This document shows positions 5,739-63,846 of a DNA stretch of 64,000 bases, one piece after another. The position numbers were made by a program, and so were the translations under genes. The notes under the pieces were generated by a model. That model was not told the DNA's origin, made no database searches, and saw only the letters and a program-made list of their open reading frames with translations. Within the stretch, counting starts at the first letter, position 1, and every line of letters begins with the position of its first letter. The stretch is from assembly GCA_019694655.1 (NCBI GenBank), contig JAIBBN010000004.1, forward strand, positions 272,348-336,347, written 5' to 3'. This DNA comes from Leptospirales bacterium (GTDB lineage Bacteria; Spirochaetota; Leptospiria; Leptospirales; Leptonemataceae).

Positions 5739-6356
5739 ATGACCTCATTGTTTCGCATCCTGCGATACGCGCTGGCGATGGCAATTGCCGCGGCTGCGGC
5801 ATTGCTAATATCCTGCGCCGCCGGAGATGCCGGCGGCGAGGGCTCTGCGGCTCTGGCCTATGATCCGGCCAATGAACCGGATGCGCCGACGGAGCAGGAC
5901 GATCCCTTCCTGCGCGCTGCGCCCGATGGAACCACCTTCCGAATTCTGATTGATCGCGATGGCTACCATGTGCGACAACTTGCTCGCCGCGAATTATTCC
6001 GTCGCAAGAAGGACATTGAAGGCGATCGCGAGCAGTTTGATTTTTTTCGCAGCGAGCATGACAAGGCCGACTTCATGGATCTGCGTCTGGAGGGCGTGCT
6101 GCAGATTCGGCTCAATCCGCTCTCCGGCGCCATCGAGCATATCGCTTACCTTGCCGGGCGCACGCCGCGCACCTGGCAGGCCAGCAAATTCTTCCAGGAC
6201 GACATCAGCCGTTTTCGCTTCGACTTCCTGGCCGGCGGGGTGAATCCACGGGAATTCAAGGCGCACTACCTCTGGGTGATCCACAAGCGCGAAGGCCTGA
6301 GCGATGAAGAGCAGCGACGCCGGGCGATTGAGTACTTGAACTCGCAAGTGCGATGA
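5739..6356 (+). CDS. predicted lipoprotein
   Basis: A 205-residue protein with a clear lipoprotein signal: a positively charged n-region, an Ala-rich hydrophobic stretch and the lipobox LLISC with the acylated Cys at residue 26. An upstream in-frame ATG at 5649 lies inside the preceding gene. I chose 5739 because GGAG at 5727-5730 is well spaced and the signal peptide starts there. The mature part is charged and has no domain I recognise. It overlaps the next gene by ATGA, so the two are translationally coupled. Function is unknown; the likely location is an inner or outer membrane leaflet facing the periplasm. Confidence 0.75.
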   Translation: MTSLFRILRYALAMAIAAAAALLISCAAGDAGGEGSAALAYDPANEPDAPTEQDDPFLRAAPDGTTFRILIDRDGYHVRQLARRELFRRKKDIEGDREQFDFFRSEHDKADFMDLRLEGVLQIRLNPLSGAIEHIAYLAGRTPRTWQASKFFQDDISRFRFDFLAGGVNPREFKAHYLWVIHKREGLSDEEQRRRAIEYLNSQVR

Positions 6357-7003
6357 GCGCGCTTGCGATTATTACGCCGGCCGCTCTGACCTTTGCAGCG
6401 GCGCTGCTGGGGCTGGCGGCCTTGCTGGGCGTATCCTGGATTCTGTACATTGTTGTTGTGGCGCCGGCCCGTCGAGTGAAGGCGGAGCAGGACGCTCCGC
6501 CGCCGCAGGTTGGCTACGCCCTGGATCTATTTCTTTCCGATCAGAATCGACAGCGCAAGGTAAGCATCGGTCTGCTCGATTCCGACATCAAACTTCGGCT
6601 CAGCGGCATCCGCGAGGACCAGTTGATTCTGCGCTTTGAAAAGGAGCGAGGCCTGGAGGAATACCAGATCAACATTCAGCCTGGCGCCAATGTGTACTAC
6701 CGGCCGCCCCATGGTCGCAAGATCGAGGCAATGAAGGATGGGGAAACCGTGGAAAGCCGCGAATTGATCGGTCACGCTGCCGCCTTTCGCCTGGCGGCCA
6801 GCGTGAAGAACAATCGAGCCCTGCAATATGTTGAATTTGAATTGTCAGTCAAATTTGTGATTAACAACCTGGGCGAAGAAGTGATGCGATTTACGCTTTC
6901 CTTAACTCGCATATTCCCGGGCGTCGACACCGGCTCGCGCAACAAGCAAGGACTCTATGGATTCAGTCGCTTTCGCGGCGGGCAGGAGGAGCCCACGGAA
7001 TGA
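6353..7003 (+). CDS. single-pass membrane protein of unknown function
   Basis: A 216-residue protein with one strong N-terminal membrane helix (about residues 5-32), then a soluble beta-rich domain of roughly 170 residues. It overlaps the upstream lipoprotein by ATGA and the downstream thrC by four bases, so all three are probably co-translated. The soluble part (for example ELSVKFVINNLGEEVMRF) has a PilZ- or beta-barrel-like alternation, but I see no RxxxR or D/NxSxxG motif, so I do not assign it to PilZ. Conserved co-localisation with the lipoprotein would suggest a joint envelope role. Confidence 0.7.
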   Translation: MSALAIITPAALTFAAALLGLAALLGVSWILYIVVVAPARRVKAEQDAPPPQVGYALDLFLSDQNRQRKVSIGLLDSDIKLRLSGIREDQLILRFEKERGLEEYQINIQPGANVYYRPPHGRKIEAMKDGETVESRELIGHAAAFRLAASVKNNRALQYVEFELSVKFVINNLGEEVMRFTLSLTRIFPGVDTGSRNKQGLYGFSRFRGGQEEPTE

Positions 7004-8346
7004 TCCCGCCAGCAATTTCAGGTCTGAAGGCCGTCTTGCGTTGTATCGAATGCGGTCGACAGTATTCTTTGCACGTCGTTCTCTATCGGTGTCAACACTG
7101 CGACGGACTGCTTGAAGTTTTTCATGACGTTTCCGCCCTGCAGGCGACGCCGGCTCAAGAATGGAAGCAGCTTTTCGAAGGTCGGATGAGCGATTTTTGT
7201 CATCCTTGGAATTCGGGCGTCTGGGGGAAACGCGAGTGGGTGCTGCCGGAGATCGATGATCAGGATATTGTCAGTCACAGCGAGGGTCGATCGCCGCTCA
7301 GCGAGCTCCACGAGCTGGCGCACGAACTCGATCTGAGCAGGCTCTGGATCAAACAATGCGGCATTTCCCACACCGGCTCCTTCAAGGATCTGGGTATGAC
7401 CGTTCTGGTGAGTCATGTGCGCTCCCTGATCCGCCGCGGGATTTCGATCCGAGCCGTAGCATGCGCCTCGACCGGCGATACCAGTGCAGCGCTGGCAGCC
7501 TATGCCGCCGCTGCCGGCATTCCGACGATTGTGTTTTTGCCGGCCGGAAAGATTACGACGGCGCAGCTGGTCCAGCCGCTGGCCTCGGGCGCCATCGTAC
7601 TATCGCTGGATACTGATTTCGACGGATGCATGGAGGTGGTGCAAGCGATCACCGCCGATCAAAGCATCTATCTGGCCAATTCAATGAATCCGCTGCGTAT
7701 CGAGGGGCAAAAGACAGTTAGCATCGAGCTGGTCCAGCAACTGGGCTGGCAGGCTCCAGACTGGGTCATCATTCCGGGCGGCAATCTCGGCAACGTCAGC
7801 GCACTCGGGGCTGGTTTCAAACTACTGCGCGACTGCGGCCTGATCGATCGGTTGCCGCGGATCTGTGTTGCGCAATCGGAGCGCGCCAATCCGCTCTACC
7901 TGAGTTTTCAGAAGAACTTTTCCGCCCTGGAGCCAGTGAAGGCCAGAACCACCCTTGCTTCCGCCATTCAGATCGGCAATCCTGTAAGCTATCCGCGCGC
8001 CGTGCGCACCTTGCGTGAATTTGAGGGAGTGGTGGAGCAGGCCAGTGAAGAGGAGCTTGCTGAGGCCTCCGCTCGAACCGATCGATTTGGACAGTTCTGC
8101 GATCCGCACACGGGCGTTGCCCTGGCTGCGCTTTTCAAGCTGCGCCAGCAAGGCGCTATCAAGGCGCAACAGAGCGTCGCATTGATCTCTACCGCGCACG
8201 GACTCAAATTTTCTGATTTCAAAATCGGCTACCATGAAGGCCGCCTGAGCGATGTCGGCCAGCAACGCTATCGAAATATGCCGGTCGCGCTGCCGGCCGA
8301 CATCAAGCGCGTGCGCGCCGCCCTGGCCGAGCGTCTCGGAAAGTAG
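7000..8346 (+). CDS. thrC: threonine synthase
   Basis: This PLP enzyme converts O-phosphohomoserine to threonine in the cytoplasm. The 448-residue protein begins with a zinc ribbon (Cys15, Cys18, Cys31, Cys34), as in long bacterial and archaeal forms. The PLP lysine is K129 in HTGSFKDLG. The phosphate-binding strand reads PGGNLGNVSA, and the C-terminus has the fold-type II pattern. The start overlaps the preceding gene by four bases. A GHKL-type ATPase gene follows after 4 bp. Threonine synthase is the best call from the ribbon and overall layout; a related cysteate or diaminopropionate enzyme is less likely. Confidence 0.88.
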   Translation: MIPPAISGLKAVLRCIECGRQYSLHVVLYRCQHCDGLLEVFHDVSALQATPAQEWKQLFEGRMSDFCHPWNSGVWGKREWVLPEIDDQDIVSHSEGRSPLSELHELAHELDLSRLWIKQCGISHTGSFKDLGMTVLVSHVRSLIRRGISIRAVACASTGDTSAALAAYAAAAGIPTIVFLPAGKITTAQLVQPLASGAIVLSLDTDFDGCMEVVQAITADQSIYLANSMNPLRIEGQKTVSIELVQQLGWQAPDWVIIPGGNLGNVSALGAGFKLLRDCGLIDRLPRICVAQSERANPLYLSFQKNFSALEPVKARTTLASAIQIGNPVSYPRAVRTLREFEGVVEQASEEELAEASARTDRFGQFCDPHTGVALAALFKLRQQGAIKAQQSVALISTAHGLKFSDFKIGYHEGRLSDVGQQRYRNMPVALPADIKRVRAALAERLGK

Positions 8347-8350
8347 AGCG

Positions 8351-9103
8351 ATGACCGCGCCCAACGTCCTACAGGCCTTGCAGCAGGGCAGAGCAATTAC
8401 GCTGCGCTCGCGCGTATTGAGCGAACATAGCGAGGAACGGCTGCTGGGAACAATGGAGGCGGTTTATGGCTATTTTAATCGCGCGGAGTTGGCCGGGCCG
8501 CTCTATGCGGCCGTTCGCGAATTGATTCAAAATGCTGCCAAAGCAAATATTAAGCGCATTCTGTTCGATGAGCTGGGTATTCAGCCAGGCGAGGTGCGCG
8601 ACTACGTTGAGGCGATGTCGATCTTTCGAAAACAGTTGAATCGGACGCACATTTCCGGATACCTGCAGGCGATTCGTGCTCGCGATTTGTTTGTCGACGT
8701 ACGCTTTGAACACAGTCCGCGCGCGGTCGCTATTACAATTTCCAATCCCTTTCCGCTTTATGCCGAAGAAGAACTACGCATTCGTCAGAAGTTCCGTGAG
8801 GCGCAATTTGCCGATGGCCTCTATGAGTTTTATTTGCAGCATGGCGATCAAGTGGAGGGCGCCGGAATGGGGATTGCGATGGTGCTGATATTGCTGCAAC
8901 AATTGGGATTCGATCCGCGGCTTTTTTCAATCCACTCCGATGCTGCCAGCGGGCGAGCGATCTCGCGAATGATCACGCCCATGAGCGATGACTATGAGTC
9001 GCCCAGACGTCAATTTCATCGGCTATGTCTGGAGCGCGACTGTACTCCGCAGCAATTGCGTCTCGCAATTCGCGGCGGCAGCGTGCAGCTGGCCAGGCTT
9101 TGA
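8351..9103 (+). CDS. divergent GHKL ATPase (paralog A)
   Basis: A 250-residue soluble protein with a histidine-kinase-like ATPase fold but no HisKA, receiver or membrane part. The N-box is clear (ELIQNAAKAN, residues 57-66), and the G2 loop reads VEGAGMGIAM from residue 168. The G1 box DxGxG is absent; the equivalent strand reads ITISNPFPL. A conserved RQKFREA stretch lies between them. Two paralogs with the same altered pattern lie at 29625 and 30443. ATG 8351 was preferred to the upstream in-frame ATG at 8252, which lies inside thrC. An anti-sigma or regulatory kinase role is possible, but the missing Asp may change nucleotide binding. Confidence 0.75.
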   Translation: MTAPNVLQALQQGRAITLRSRVLSEHSEERLLGTMEAVYGYFNRAELAGPLYAAVRELIQNAAKANIKRILFDELGIQPGEVRDYVEAMSIFRKQLNRTHISGYLQAIRARDLFVDVRFEHSPRAVAITISNPFPLYAEEELRIRQKFREAQFADGLYEFYLQHGDQVEGAGMGIAMVLILLQQLGFDPRLFSIHSDAASGRAISRMITPMSDDYESPRRQFHRLCLERDCTPQQLRLAIRGGSVQLARL

Positions 9104-57953: not shown

Positions 57954-59501
57954 ATGGAAGTTCTCAGCATTCTCCTCTTTGTTCTCTACGGCCTTGATAT
58001 CGCACTTCTCTTCTTCTTCGGAGTGCATACCTATGTCATGGTTTTGCTGTATCGCCGCAACAGCAAGTACTGCGATTCGGGCGCCGAACGGCCGCCCATC
58101 GATCTATCCAGCGTCACGGCGCGCAAACTGCCGATGGTAACCCTGCAGCTGCCGATCTACAATGAGTACTACGTTGTTGATCGTCTGTTGGAGTCCGCAG
58201 TGCGCCTGCAGTGGCCGCGCGAAAAGCTGGAGATCCAGGTCCTCGACGATTCCACCGATGAAACAGCGGACAAGGTCGCCCGCCTCGTCCAGGGCTATCG
58301 CGACCTGGGCTACAATATGGTGCATATCCATCGCACCAATCGCCAGGGTCACAAAGCTGGTGCGCTAAAGCATGGCCTTGAGCTGGCGGCCGGCGACTAC
58401 ATCGCCATCTTCGATGCTGACTTCATTCCAAATCCTGAATTTCTGATTCGCACGATGCCCTACTTCGAGGAGCAGGGAATTGGAATGGTGCAGACCCGCT
58501 GGGGCCACATCAATGCCGACTACTCGATTCTAACCAAAGCGCAATCGATGGGCATTGATGGTCACTTCATGATCGAGCAGGTGGCTCGCAATGGCAACCA
58601 TCTGTGGATGAACTTCAATGGCACTGGCGGCATCTGGAAGCGGGAGTGTATTCTTGAGGCCGGCAACTGGCAGGGCGACACTCTGACCGAGGACTTTGAT
58701 CTATCTTACCGGGCTGAACTGGCTGGCTGGCGTTTTCGCTACTTCAAAGATATCGTTAATCCAGCTGAATTGCCGGCGACCATTGCTGCGTTCAAATCGC
58801 AGCAGTTTCGCTGGTGCAAAGGTTCCATCCAGACTGCGCTGAAATTGATTCCGCGAATTCTGCGCTCCGATGTGAATTGGAAGATCAAAGCGGAGGCAGT
58901 GACGCACCTGGTAAATTACTCCGTACACCCGCTGATGATATTCAATATGCTGATGACCCTCCCGTTGCTTCTGCTGGATGGCTGGAGCGTCTATCATATG
59001 CGGGACTTTTCGGTTGTATCGCTGTTTGCGGTGGCAGCATGCATGAGCGTTGGTACGCTGGGGCCGATGGTGTTCTACGTTTACTCGCAGCGCGAGCTGC
59101 ACAAGGACTGGCTGCAGCGAATCGTTTGGCTGCCGGTGTTGATGATGATTGGCACAGGTATTGCCGTCAAATTGACTCGCGCCTGGTTTGAGGCAATTCT
59201 GGGCGTGCAGAGCTCGTTCAAACGTACGCCCAAGCTTCGCCTGGAGAGCCGCGCCGACCGCGTTCTGGAGCGGCAGCGCTATCGACTTCCGCTAGATCAT
59301 CTGGTCTGGTTGGAATTGGCCATGGGCCTCTATTGCGCAACGTGCGCCTGGCTTTCCTACTCATTTGATCTCTGGATGCTGACTCCCTTCATGGCGATCT
59401 ATGCTTCAGGCTTTTTCTATGCCGGTCTGGGGTCGATCGTCGAGGCCTTCCAGCAACTGCGTCAGTCGCGCGAAAGCGAGAGCATCGCACGGGCGGCGTG
59501 A
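57954..59501 (+). CDS. GT2 glycosyltransferase, beta-mannan-synthase-like
   Basis: A 515-residue membrane enzyme. An N-terminal helix precedes the GT2 catalytic core (TLQLPIYNEYYVVDRLLESA, DxD as Asp154-Ala-Asp156 in FDADF). The acceptor motif TEDFDLSYRAE and the polymerase motif QQFRW (Gln283-Trp287) follow, then several membrane helices. This is the layout of processive beta-glycan synthases, closest in feel to CslA-type mannan synthases. GDP-mannose from manC would be a fitting donor. ATG 57954 with GGAAG was chosen over the upstream extension. Confidence 0.85.
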   Translation: MEVLSILLFVLYGLDIALLFFFGVHTYVMVLLYRRNSKYCDSGAERPPIDLSSVTARKLPMVTLQLPIYNEYYVVDRLLESAVRLQWPREKLEIQVLDDSTDETADKVARLVQGYRDLGYNMVHIHRTNRQGHKAGALKHGLELAAGDYIAIFDADFIPNPEFLIRTMPYFEEQGIGMVQTRWGHINADYSILTKAQSMGIDGHFMIEQVARNGNHLWMNFNGTGGIWKRECILEAGNWQGDTLTEDFDLSYRAELAGWRFRYFKDIVNPAELPATIAAFKSQQFRWCKGSIQTALKLIPRILRSDVNWKIKAEAVTHLVNYSVHPLMIFNMLMTLPLLLLDGWSVYHMRDFSVVSLFAVAACMSVGTLGPMVFYVYSQRELHKDWLQRIVWLPVLMMIGTGIAVKLTRAWFEAILGVQSSFKRTPKLRLESRADRVLERQRYRLPLDHLVWLELAMGLYCATCAWLSYSFDLWMLTPFMAIYASGFFYAGLGSIVEAFQQLRQSRESESIARAA

Positions 59502-59514
59502 CGCGTCGCTTGCT

Positions 59515-60465
59515 TTGCCCTCGCTAGACTGGGAAAGTTGGCCGCTCTGGCTGGATAGTCCGGCCAGAAGCATTCTGGTGGATGGCGGGCTGGCCCTCAA
59601 TATTCGCCCGCAGCGCAGCCTTCCCGATTTAAGCGCTGAGCTTGAGCGGCTGGACGCTGAGTTTGCCGCCGGCCGACAGGGCGCCGGCCAATTCGTAGAG
59701 CTGGCGCGCGGAGTCTGGCCGCCGGAAACGGAGCAGGAGCTACGTTTGCGTCTCGATGGACGCGGTCTGCGCTACTTGAGTAACCAGACAGGCGGCCCCA
59801 GTCCGGAATGGGTCTCTTTTCAGGATGGCCAGGAACTGCTGGGGCTTTCACCAGTGCTGCGTTTGTCCCCTGAGACATCCCTGCCGACTTTGACTGCCAG
59901 AGTAAGCAGCAACACTGCTTTCATTTACTGCAATCCGGGAGGCGAGCCGCCACTGCCGCAGGCAAAGCGGCAGGCTGAACGCTGTGCGCAACTGCTTGAG
60001 TCGCGCTTTGATGTCCAGCTATGTATGCGCTCGCTATCGGAGCATGAATTCTATGAGCGGCTACTGGCTTCACGCCTGGCGCTCTATTTTGGCCACGGCA
60101 TGTCGGTGCAAGGCGCCGTAGCCATCGCAACGCCTCAGGGTTTTGCACCTTTGATTCCCGCAGCCTGGCTGGGGCAGGGCGGACCTGAAGCCTTCCTGTT
60201 TGGCGGTTGCTTGCCTGGAGGCCTGCAGCGTATCGCTCCTGCGGATTGTTGGTTCTTGCACCCCGCCTGTCGCCTCGCGGACCGCCTGGACCCCTATTTT
60301 GAAGCCTTTGTCAGCTCCATTGCCCGGGGCGAAACGCCCGACCAGGCTCTGGCGGCTGGCATTCTGGCCGACCGGCAGGTCGGGGACTGCCGTCGCTTTG
60401 CCTACCGTTTGAGAGCCCCGCGCAACTCCGGCCGAAGCTCGCCGGCGAAGCTGCAGGCGGATTGA
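59515..60465 (+). CDS. CHAT/caspase-like protein
   Basis: A 316-residue soluble protein starting at TTG 59515; the true start is uncertain and the frame is open upstream into the GT2 gene. The C-terminal half has the look of a CHAT/caspase-fold peptidase: His194 in YFGHGMSVQG, Cys232 in FLFGGCLPG, then a helix and SIARGETPDQALAAG. The N-terminal part is unassigned. It lies 13 bp after the GT2 gene and just before a PilZ gene, so it may be part of a polysaccharide control unit. Protease activity is a prediction. Confidence 0.6.
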   Translation: MPSLDWESWPLWLDSPARSILVDGGLALNIRPQRSLPDLSAELERLDAEFAAGRQGAGQFVELARGVWPPETEQELRLRLDGRGLRYLSNQTGGPSPEWVSFQDGQELLGLSPVLRLSPETSLPTLTARVSSNTAFIYCNPGGEPPLPQAKRQAERCAQLLESRFDVQLCMRSLSEHEFYERLLASRLALYFGHGMSVQGAVAIATPQGFAPLIPAAWLGQGGPEAFLFGGCLPGGLQRIAPADCWFLHPACRLADRLDPYFEAFVSSIARGETPDQALAAGILADRQVGDCRRFAYRLRAPRNSGRSSPAKLQAD

Positions 60466-60973: not shown

Positions 60974-61270
60974 ATGGCGGCGGGAGAAAAGGTCTATTGC
61001 GCAAATTGTGCGCAGTGCATTGTTGTGCGGCAGTATGAAGCCGAACACGACAAGTACATTTTGCGTGTTCGCTGCAACAAGAAGAAATGGTCCAAGCGCT
61101 CCGGCGAAGAAAAGCTATACAAGTACTTTACAGTAGCTCGTCGCATGCAGCCAAACTGCGAAGACTACCAGGAAATGGGCGACCTGTTGCCCTATATCAA
61201 GAATCTGAAAAAAGAACTTCCGATCAAGGATGAGATCTACGGCGTGAAGAAGCCGGCTCGCACAGCTTGA
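60974..61270 (+). CDS. small Cys-rich conserved protein
   Basis: A 98-residue protein with CANCAQC at residues 9-15 and further Cys at 34 and 62, followed by the basic KKKWSKRSGEEKLYKYFT. I associate this type with spirochaetes but know no function. AGGAG upstream supports ATG 60974. It may bind metal. The downstream RnfC-like gene follows after 1 bp. Confidence 0.75.
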   Translation: MAAGEKVYCANCAQCIVVRQYEAEHDKYILRVRCNKKKWSKRSGEEKLYKYFTVARRMQPNCEDYQEMGDLLPYIKNLKKELPIKDEIYGVKKPARTA

Positions 61271-61271
61271 T

Positions 61272-62438
61272 GTGATCGCTGCCTGGGCCGGCGTCCTGCG
61301 CGGCGCCAGTTATCCACTTGGTTTCCCTTCAGCGGCGCGATTTGGCGCCGCGGCGGTCCCAATTCCGGGACGTCTGCAGATTCAGTTTGGCGCCAGGTTC
61401 ACAGGCTTTCACTTCGCGCCGGTGGGCGAATACCCGCGGCGCGTCAGCCCCGGCGATGCACTGGCCGCTGCTCAAGACTTTCCGCTCTTAAGTCCCCTGC
61501 CGGGCGTGGTTCAATGCGATCGAGAGAGCGAGCAGTTTGTCTTGAGCGTAGAGGGTCAGCTGCTTTCTTCAACGGCGACCCTGCCGCCGTTGGAAAACAT
61601 GGGCGCCCCGGAATTCCTGGCGGCGCTGGACAGCGCCGGTCTGCCCGCGCTCTACTACCGTGGGCTGCAGCTATCCACACTGCTGCGCGATGTTTGCGCA
61701 AACGGAGGCGTTGCGCTTCTCGCGCTCTATGATGCGTCCGCCAGCCTTGACTGGAAACAAATCTGGAGTCTCCGCGCGCCGCAGGTTCTCAGTCTTGTCG
61801 AGCAACTGCGGCGCATTTTTCCGGAAATTCAATTCGTCAAGGACGGCTCGAAACTCTGGCCGACAGGAGCTGGCAATCTCGCCGCCTACTCCCGCAGACT
61901 TCCGGAGGCGGCGCTGCGTCGCCATCGCGCCGCTGCCTACCTTGGACCCGCGACAATTCTGGCGATGCTGGACTACTTTTTCGAGGGTCGACCTTTCTAC
62001 TCGCGACAGTGCGGAGTCTTCTCGCAGAATGGTCGATCCTTCGCAGCGCGGCTGCCAAACGGTCTGGAACTGTCCTCGCTGGCTGCGCCCTCGGGCAGCA
62101 TTCCAATGCAATGCGACCCGCTGCGCGGCGAAATGCGAGGAACGGACGTTTGGCCCTCCCTTTCAATCTATTGTGAAGACGGCATCTATGATTCGCGATT
62201 CGTTGCCTCTGCGATGCCTGCGGCCATTGCCTGCAGCGGATGCGATTGTTGCGAGACGCTCTGTCCGGCGCAGTGCCATCCGATTGGACTGATCGATCCG
62301 CTAGGGCCGAGTTTTGATGCGGGGTCCTGCGAGGAATGCTCGCTCTGTTCCTACGTCTGCGAGAGTGCAATTCCGCTGGGTCGGCTGGCAGCAGAGGCGC
62401 GAAAGAAAGCCGAGCTCAGCCCACGGCGCTGGTGGTGA
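61272..62438 (+). CDS. RnfC-like iron-sulfur protein
   Basis: A 388-residue protein. The N-terminal part (FAPVGEYPRRVSPGDALAAA, PLPGVVQ) matches the barrel-sandwich of RnfC and NqrA-type subunits. A middle part with CGVFSQNGRSFAARLPNGLE resembles the SLBB region. The C-terminus carries two 4Fe-4S motifs: Cys321/324/327/331 in CSGCDCCETLCP and Cys353/356/359/363 in CEECSLCSYVC. It would move electrons across or along a membrane complex. The start is GTG 61272. It overlaps the next gene by one base. No other rnf gene is visible here. Confidence 0.72.
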   Translation: MIAAWAGVLRGASYPLGFPSAARFGAAAVPIPGRLQIQFGARFTGFHFAPVGEYPRRVSPGDALAAAQDFPLLSPLPGVVQCDRESEQFVLSVEGQLLSSTATLPPLENMGAPEFLAALDSAGLPALYYRGLQLSTLLRDVCANGGVALLALYDASASLDWKQIWSLRAPQVLSLVEQLRRIFPEIQFVKDGSKLWPTGAGNLAAYSRRLPEAALRRHRAAAYLGPATILAMLDYFFEGRPFYSRQCGVFSQNGRSFAARLPNGLELSSLAAPSGSIPMQCDPLRGEMRGTDVWPSLSIYCEDGIYDSRFVASAMPAAIACSGCDCCETLCPAQCHPIGLIDPLGPSFDAGSCEECSLCSYVCESAIPLGRLAAEARKKAELSPRRWW

Positions 62439-63289
62439 TGGCTATGCGAAGCCGGCGCCGCTTGACTGTCCTGCGCTACTTGCTGCAACTACTGGCGCCG
62501 CCTGGAGCCCTGTTTTTGGTCAGCTTTGACGCCGCGGGCAGCAGCGGGTTTGATTGGATTTTGAGCCTGGCTATTGGCCTTGCTGCCGGCGGAATTGCTA
62601 TAGTACCAAGGCTCCTTGGCCGCAGCTCAGGTCCGCTCAGACAACAGAGTCGACCCCGTCTTCTTGGTCTGGCGATTGCTGGGCTGTCGGGCGTTTTCTG
62701 GCTGCGCCTCCTGTTGCCGCTTCATCCATCGGTCGGCCAATGGTGGGCGCTTGCTGCAGCTCCGGTATTCGGCGCGTTTACTATCAGCCGTAGTCGCTAT
62801 TCGCCATCGCCGGTCGGCGTCCTGGCATTGGCCTTGCTGGCGATTTCTCTAAGCGGTTGCGAAAACTTGCCAATGCCTCATCTCTCTGTCATCGGCGCCG
62901 CCGGGCCATTTGCTCTGGTCCTCACTGGCGTCTTTGTACTGCTTCATACTCCCGGCGCTCGCACCGCAGCGCTGGGAGGGCTTGCGCTTGTGGCCGCTTT
63001 CAGTTCTGCTTTCGGCGATCGTGCACAGGCACTGAGCATTGCTTCAATGGCCTGTCTTGCTCTCTATTGGCCGGGGATGGCTCGCAGGTCGGCGCTCGGC
63101 GCCTTGATTATGCTGCTGATCACTATCGCCAGCGTGTTGCTACCGCTTGCTCTTGCCGGCTACGCAACCTTCCAGGGCGAAACGCCGGAGGAATTTGCCA
63201 GCTTTGCTGCGGCCGCGATATGGATTGCCCTGGCCGTTGCCGGTTGGAGCCATGCGGCATTGCAAGGGCTTTCTCAACCCCGGTCCTGA
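62438..63289 (+). CDS. polytopic membrane protein next to RnfC-like gene
   Basis: A 283-residue protein with about eight to ten membrane helices and hardly any soluble part. Its start ATG 62438 overlaps the RnfC-like stop, so the two are co-translated. It may be a counterpart of RnfD or another membrane subunit of the same complex. I see no SGAT flavin-attachment motif, so RnfD is not proven. Confidence 0.65.
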   Translation: MAMRSRRRLTVLRYLLQLLAPPGALFLVSFDAAGSSGFDWILSLAIGLAAGGIAIVPRLLGRSSGPLRQQSRPRLLGLAIAGLSGVFWLRLLLPLHPSVGQWWALAAAPVFGAFTISRSRYSPSPVGVLALALLAISLSGCENLPMPHLSVIGAAGPFALVLTGVFVLLHTPGARTAALGGLALVAAFSSAFGDRAQALSIASMACLALYWPGMARRSALGALIMLLITIASVLLPLALAGYATFQGETPEEFASFAAAAIWIALAVAGWSHAALQGLSQPRS

Positions 63290-63369: not shown

Positions 63370-63846
63370 ATGGATCTGAGCGAAGTTATCACTCCCGAAC
63401 GAATCGCCATTCTTGAAGAGCGCTTTGAGAACAAACAGGAGCTGCTGGAGCGCCTGTTCAATCGCTGCTGTGGAGAGGAAGACTTTGGCGGTAAACGCGC
63501 GGAAGTCTGGCGATCGTTGCTTGAGCGCGAGAAATCGATGTCTACGGGCATTGGCCTTGGCGTTGCTATTCCACATTGCTCCTCTGACTATGTGCCGGAT
63601 GTGCTCGCCTACGCGGCGGTGCTGCGACAGGGCGTGGAATTTCAGGCAGTTGATGAAGCGCCGGTACAGATCATAGTACTCTTGTTGATGCCCAAGAAGA
63701 AGTTCGAAAGGCATATCAAGATACTGGCGGCCATCGCTCGCCAATTCAATGACGAAGGCATCCGCCGCCGCGTCCTTCAAGCAGCTGACGCGGCGGAGGC
63801 CTACGGTGTAATCGCTGAGAGCGCGGCCTCGCCGCGCGGCAGCTGA
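63370..63846 (+). CDS. ptsN: PTS IIA-like nitrogen regulatory protein
   Basis: A 158-residue stand-alone EIIA domain of the PtsN (EIIANtr) type. The phosphorylated His is H69 in GVAIPHCSS, after SLLEREKSMSTGIGLG. VDEAPVQIIVLLLMPKK and RHIKILAAIARQF follow the family. It receives phosphate from a PTS cascade and acts as a regulator rather than in sugar uptake. ATG 63370 was chosen; the longer frame overlaps the membrane protein gene. It converges on clpP 15 bp away. Confidence 0.88.
   Translation: MDLSEVITPERIAILEERFENKQELLERLFNRCCGEEDFGGKRAEVWRSLLEREKSMSTGIGLGVAIPHCSSDYVPDVLAYAAVLRQGVEFQAVDEAPVQIIVLLLMPKKKFERHIKILAAIARQFNDEGIRRRVLQAADAAEAYGVIAESAASPRGS

Follow-up and report, generated by a model that had tools for sequence, protein, structure and literature searches.

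A divergent RnfC homolog coupled to a membrane protein in Leptospirales, a candidate reduced descendant of an Rnf operon

The closest described relatives of the system reported here are the RnfC/RsxC subunits of Rnf pumps (NCBIfam accession TIGR01945) and NqrA, subunit A of the Na+-NQR pump. RnfC-like proteins are also found outside the Rnf complex, as we take to be the case for PduS, PrdC and other stand-alone RnfC-like carriers. Carriers of the PduS/PrdC type have soluble partners and serve other pathways, and we know of no coupled polytopic partner for any of them. Partial systems that are based on RnfD/NqrB and carry an NqrF-type domain have been described and are flavinylated (PMC8238504). 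Here we describe a two-gene system, rnfC'-MP', that lies near the end of a 64,000-nt stretch of DNA (the window) from Leptospirales bacterium GCA_019694655.1 (contig JAIBBN010000004.1, positions 272,348 to 336,347 of the forward strand). rnfC' encodes a very divergent RnfC homolog and MP' encodes a polytopic membrane protein in the position that rnfD occupies in rnf operons.

RnfC' shares with RnfC/RsxC full-length homology, the fold, two 4Fe-4S motifs and an adjoining membrane protein in the rnfD position, but it lacks the GGAxFP and ExEP motifs and has no RnfA, RnfB, RnfE or RnfG partners in its genome. NqrA differs in that it has also lost its Fe-S clusters and is part of a six-subunit pump, whereas in RnfC' the two cluster motifs persist and the pump is missing. 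The partial systems of PMC8238504 differ from rnfC'-MP' in being flavinylated. No description of the rnfC'-MP' pair was found in the literature searched. On balance we favor the view that the pair arose by reduction and repurposing of an rnf operon linked to a small conserved gene, here called S98.

RnfC' and its coupled membrane partner

The window RnfC' sequence by itself scores above cut-off against none of the Pfam and NCBIfam families, and relatives were therefore needed to build a profile. A profile made from 17 relatives matches the solved RnfC structure 7zc6_C (E = 6.9e-21, columns 52-391 against residues 54-431) and also, in the C-terminal half, 8ahx_C and 9eri_C. The TIGR01945 rnfC model scores on 15 of the 17 family members (E <= 0.001), and the Pfam RnfC_N, Complex1_51K and SLBB models score on none of them. 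When an AlphaFold2 model of RnfC' (mean pLDDT 69.7, pTM 0.67) was searched against the PDB, the top five places went to C subunits of Rnf (E = 1e-15 to 7e-13), with NqrA forming the second group. By descent and fold RnfC' is a genuine, strongly divergent homolog of RnfC, and the RnfC order of barrel-sandwich, SLBB-like and paired 4Fe-4S elements that a preliminary description had read from the sequence is borne out by these matches.

The two functional sites of RnfC have fared differently in this family. The cluster motif CxxCxxCxxxC is present twice near the C terminus (C321/324/327/331 and C353/356/359/363), and all eight cysteines are invariant in the 17 RnfC' sequences. Neither the GGAxFP loop nor the ExEP motif was found in any of the 17 by motif search and alignment; both are present, as GLGGAAFPT and ECEPYLT, in 19/19 standard RnfC proteins linked to S98 and in 4/4 outgroup RnfC proteins. 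In the PDB alignment, these two stretches face unrelated RnfC' residues. In Complex1_51K-type domains the two motifs build the pocket for flavin mononucleotide (FMN) and NADH. Because these pocket motifs are gone, RnfC' should bind neither FMN nor NADH.

The preliminary description had rightly placed an RnfC-like and a polytopic membrane open reading frame side by side on the + strand, but it took the genes to be fused by an overlap of about 100 nt. The stop codon of rnfC' overlaps the start codon of MP' by a single nucleotide (TGATG at 62438), and a longer MP' frame that reaches back to an ATG at 62336 is mechanical only. Across the 17 aligned genomes the distance from the rnfC' stop to the start of MP' ranges from -17 to +25 nt, with the genes overlapping in 14, and we set the start in the window at 62438 because the starts cluster at this stop. 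The two genes are a translationally coupled pair and not a fusion.

MP' family members range from 215 to 345 aa and have three to ten hydrophobic segments, mostly six to nine by a crude count. Mean column identity is 25%, hardly any residue is conserved and three subgroups barely recognize one another. No His or Cys is conserved in the family. The S/T-G-A-T motif for covalent FMN attachment is absent from all 17 MP' proteins, although in its strict form this pattern also varies in several standard S98-linked RnfD proteins. A C-terminal PGR and FPP had raised the suspicion that MP' is a plain RnfD, an identification that none of four approaches supported: hhalign against RnfD/NqrB gave a probability under 1% (positive control 95.5%), hmmsearch with the RnfD/NqrB model (PF03116) gave scores equal to those of reversed and decoy membrane proteins, a profile search of the PDB returned no match, and a poor structure model (pLDDT 56) gave no significant fold match. 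MP' thus stays at decoy level, and the match to RnfD that the preliminary description had named as counting against its reading did not appear. Since no similarity to RnfD/NqrB is detected, it is gene position, immediately 3' of and coupled to rnfC', that points to descent from RnfD; we consider MP' a probable, though unproven, divergent form of RnfD.

It is possible, if rather unlikely, that RnfC' descends from an Rnf operon as we propose while MP' is unrelated to RnfD and was recruited as a new partner to serve as anchor or electron exit. The lack of any profile, Pfam, PDB or fold match would follow naturally from such a recruitment, as would the fact that RnfC' is still detectable at an equal evolutionary distance and MP' is not. 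Set against this, MP' lies where rnfD would be and is coupled just as tightly, and relatives carry rnfC followed by rnfD alone at this locus (see below). Membrane proteins that have shed their cofactors can moreover diverge fast, and even the MP' subgroups barely match each other.

The distribution of the two genes argues that they belong together. Searches of 296 Spirochaetota genomes found RnfC' in 17, all of them Leptospirales (E = 1e-88 to 1e-147), with a clean score gap to the best other match, an ordinary RnfC at 4e-27. MP' is found in the same 17 genomes and in one fragmented genome. Reading frames are open in all 17 aligned genomes. For two closely related genomes the ratio of nonsynonymous to synonymous substitution rates (dN/dS) comes to 0.06 in RnfC' and 0.12 in MP', and a more distant pair gives 0.28 and 0.51, respectively. 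The rnfC'-MP' pair is under purifying selection. Co-occurrence and dN/dS thus indicate a real pair that is maintained jointly, with MP' the fast-changing member. The idea that the genes are a decaying remnant with no present function draws on their very low conservation, that of MP' especially, and on the absence of the pair from several sister genera. It is largely contradicted by the data, namely by the low dN/dS of both genes in the close pair, by the open frames, by the eight invariant cysteines and by the joint presence or absence of the two genes, and we regard it as highly improbable.

The remaining parts of an Rnf pump are missing from the window's own genome (about 96% complete) and not just from the vicinity of the pair, where their absence had been noted before. 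Searches of this genome for PF02508 (RnfA/E, NqrD/E), PF04060 (RnfB) and PF13375 (RnfC_N, standard RnfC) returned nothing above cut-off while detecting their controls, and no RnfG-type subunit was found, the sole PF04205 match being a 183-aa FMN_bind protein at another locus. No other rnf or nqr genes that would form a normal complex with this RnfC' were found in the genome. The suggestion of the preliminary description, a reduced two-gene module or a remnant with altered partners, agrees with these results. Across relatives, no clear pattern connects the pair with Nqr or Rnf genes elsewhere, as pair-bearing genomes occur both with and without PF02508.

Two further loci of this genome were considered in connection with the pair. 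The FMN_bind protein (L162:1459-2007, contig 4 of G000, some 17.5 kb upstream of where the window begins) has a T-GAT motif and lies beside two small membrane proteins, an arrangement also seen in L160 and L161 that may be a separate extracytosolic flavin module. A general flavinylation link between the pair, such an FMN_bind protein and ApbE was rejected, as the eight f2 genomes, each of which carries MP', all lack ApbE. Together with the missing motif, this absence excludes a covalent flavin as a general feature of MP'. The genome also encodes one divergent RnfD-like protein (PF03116) beside a DUF2330 protein, away from the pair (L040:1087-3310, contig 5 of G000); such orphan RnfD-like proteins with DUF2330 neighbors recur in several Leptospirales (also L041-L043), where other Rnf genes are lacking. 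This protein was rejected as a general partner of RnfC' because seven genomes (G002, G004, G014, G020, G022, G024 and G025) have the pair and gave no PF03116 match in the search for that family.

Rnf loci linked to S98 and the origin of the pair

The gene upstream of rnfC' provides a means of following the locus across the phylum. S98 matches no Pfam, NCBIfam or PDB family, yields a mean column identity of 81% within Leptospirales and is single-copy in 39/41 relatives. The protein is roughly 93-104 aa long with a GEEKLYKY core, and its five cysteines are kept in at least 95% of 64 Spirochaetota loci. Used as the anchor of a search through 84,980 species genomes, S98 led to 65 loci, nearly all titled Spirochaetota.

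Outside Leptospirales, S98 is frequently followed by an rnf operon. rnfC lies directly 3' of S98 in 23 of 26 such loci (L110-L135; two of the 23 are cut or fragmentary), usually 4-7 nt past the S98 stop, and 16 of the loci have the order rnfC-D-G-E-A. In the stretch read around the S98-linked rnfCDGEA operons of L110-L134, no rnfB was seen; second loci away from S98 (L153, L154 and L156) have a complete rnfCDGEA set together with an RnfB-like gene.

Three S98 loci retain only rnfC and rnfD, with rnfGEA gone (L117:6287-8691, L135:6288-8683 and L131 at about 6285-8588). thyX comes next in L117, where PF02511 identifies it, and in L135, and two other loci, L116 and L118, have no rnf and carry a gene of thyX-like length directly after S98. 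The flavin-site motifs of the three RnfC proteins are eroding (GGDAFP/ESEP in L135, GGVSIP/ESEP in L131 and LSGEGC/AVEP in L117), the SGAT motif of RnfD is lost in L117 and L131, and in L131 rnfC is split by a frame break. We read these loci as intermediate stages of Rnf reduction. They resemble the Leptospirales locus in the S98-C-D order, in the changing flavin-site motifs and in the kept cluster motifs. They differ from it in that RnfC and RnfD remain clearly recognizable (in L117, PF01512 at E = 2.4e-30 and PF03116 at E = 6.4e-90) and in that the genomes of L117 and L135 keep a separate complete rnf (L153 and L154). The L131 genome has no PF02508 or PF04205 match anywhere.

The simplest account of these arrangements would be that an ancestral S98-rnf operon, with the conserved ptsN next in line, was reduced stepwise. 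Several observations weigh against it. In a tree of RnfC proteins, RnfC' forms a single clade (100/100), but its branch is very long and the tree does not fix where it attaches, so that an origin from S98-linked RnfC is without tree support; a grouping of the two is not rejected by the approximately unbiased test (p-AU 0.373). Since S98-PtsN without rnf is common in the rest of the class, the pair could instead have been inserted beside S98 independently. In one genome (G005, L006:1050-3122) the pair directly follows PilZ, with clpP next on the opposite strand and neither S98 nor ptsN adjoining, and S98 lies about 230 kb away. MP' has no detectable RnfD similarity and, because it has no conserved His or Cys, no visible cofactor for electron passage through it. 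We nevertheless hold descent from an S98-linked rnf operon to be somewhat the likelier outcome.

Gene layout around the pair

The window closes with a row of four + strand genes, namely S98, rnfC', MP' and ptsN (Table 1), with a PilZ gene and a glycosyltransferase 2 gene farther upstream of S98. The downstream PTS-Ntr protein had been thought unusual. In other families of the window's class, however, ptsN directly follows S98 with one exception among the loci read (L197), and in Leptospirales S98 is followed either by rnfC'-MP'-ptsN or by ptsN alone. Across most of the class, PtsN is thus an ordinary neighbor at this locus. In several relatives, a 354-aa open reading frame (window positions 59401-60465) is conserved on the upstream side of PilZ; its Peptidase_C50 match is sub-threshold (E = 0.16). 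It may be CHAT-like.

Table 1. Features of the rnfC'-MP' locus, in window coordinates
Feature	Position	Strand	Basis
S98, 98 aa, five conserved cysteines (CxxCxxC, C, C), conserved locus anchor	60974..61270	+	Conservation across Spirochaetota
rnfC', divergent RnfC homolog, 388 aa, GTG start, barrel-sandwich/SLBB-like fold, two 4Fe-4S motifs, no FMN/NADH motifs	61272..62438	+	Profile, fold, motif search
Site of lost glycine-rich FMN/NADH loop, residues 123-133, GLPALYYRGLQ in place of RnfC GLGGAAFPTxVKL	61638..61670	+	RnfC alignment
Site of lost ECEPYLT motif, residues 152-159, LYDASASL	61725..61748	+	PDB alignment, RnfC alignment, motif search
First 4Fe-4S motif, C321-C331	62232..62264	+	Invariant in 17 homologs
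Second 4Fe-4S motif, C353-C363	62328..62360	+	Invariant in 17 homologs
MP', polytopic membrane protein, 283 aa, rnfD position	62438..63289	+	Start in TGATG, pairing with rnfC'
ptsN (PTS EIIA-Ntr), conserved downstream gene, outside the redox pair	63370..63846	+	PF00359, E = 1.1e-26

Proposed function and significance

The loss of the NADH/flavin loops, the retention of the clusters and the constant pairing with a membrane protein that matches no known family suggest that the pair probably has an electron-transfer job different from that of the pump. As RnfA/E and the covalent flavins are missing, ion pumping in the manner of Rnf is very unlikely. RnfC' is most likely a membrane-docked, flavin-free relay of two 4Fe-4S clusters that would no longer be fed by NADH. 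We envisage RnfC' docked to the cytoplasmic side of MP' and taking single electrons from a small cytosolic carrier, such as ferredoxin, rather than from NADH. The electrons might then pass via the two RnfC' clusters to a membrane acceptor held by MP', which could be a quinone or a protein partner. The full proposal, a functional, ApbE-independent and flavin-free two-subunit oxidoreductase that was made by stripping an Rnf pump down to an iron-sulfur relay plus one membrane subunit and that delivers electrons to the membrane from a carrier resembling ferredoxin, is one we put forward tentatively, at less than even odds.

The pair could alternatively act as a redox sensor or regulator in which the state of the clusters is read by MP', S98 or PtsN, by analogy with the link between Rsx, the E. 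coli Rnf, and SoxR. The constant neighbors PtsN and the Cys-rich S98 would suit such a role, as would the absence of conserved cofactor ligands from MP' and the dispensability of the pair in several sister genera. Both clusters are fully kept in a relay-type arrangement, however, which is a better fit to transfer, and PtsN and S98 remain together where the pair is absent, which indicates that neither depends on it. A sensory role thus seems improbable.

If the pair is an electron relay of the kind proposed, Leptospirales, to which Leptospira belongs, would possess a membrane redox pair that has gone unstudied. NqrA is an RnfC fold that was stripped of its redox cofactors and retained as a structural part of a pump; RnfC' would represent the other outcome, in which the flavin/NADH sites were lost, the clusters retained and the pump is gone. 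Because graded intermediates occur at the same locus in the same phylum, the dismantling and reuse of an ion pump becomes testable in these bacteria.
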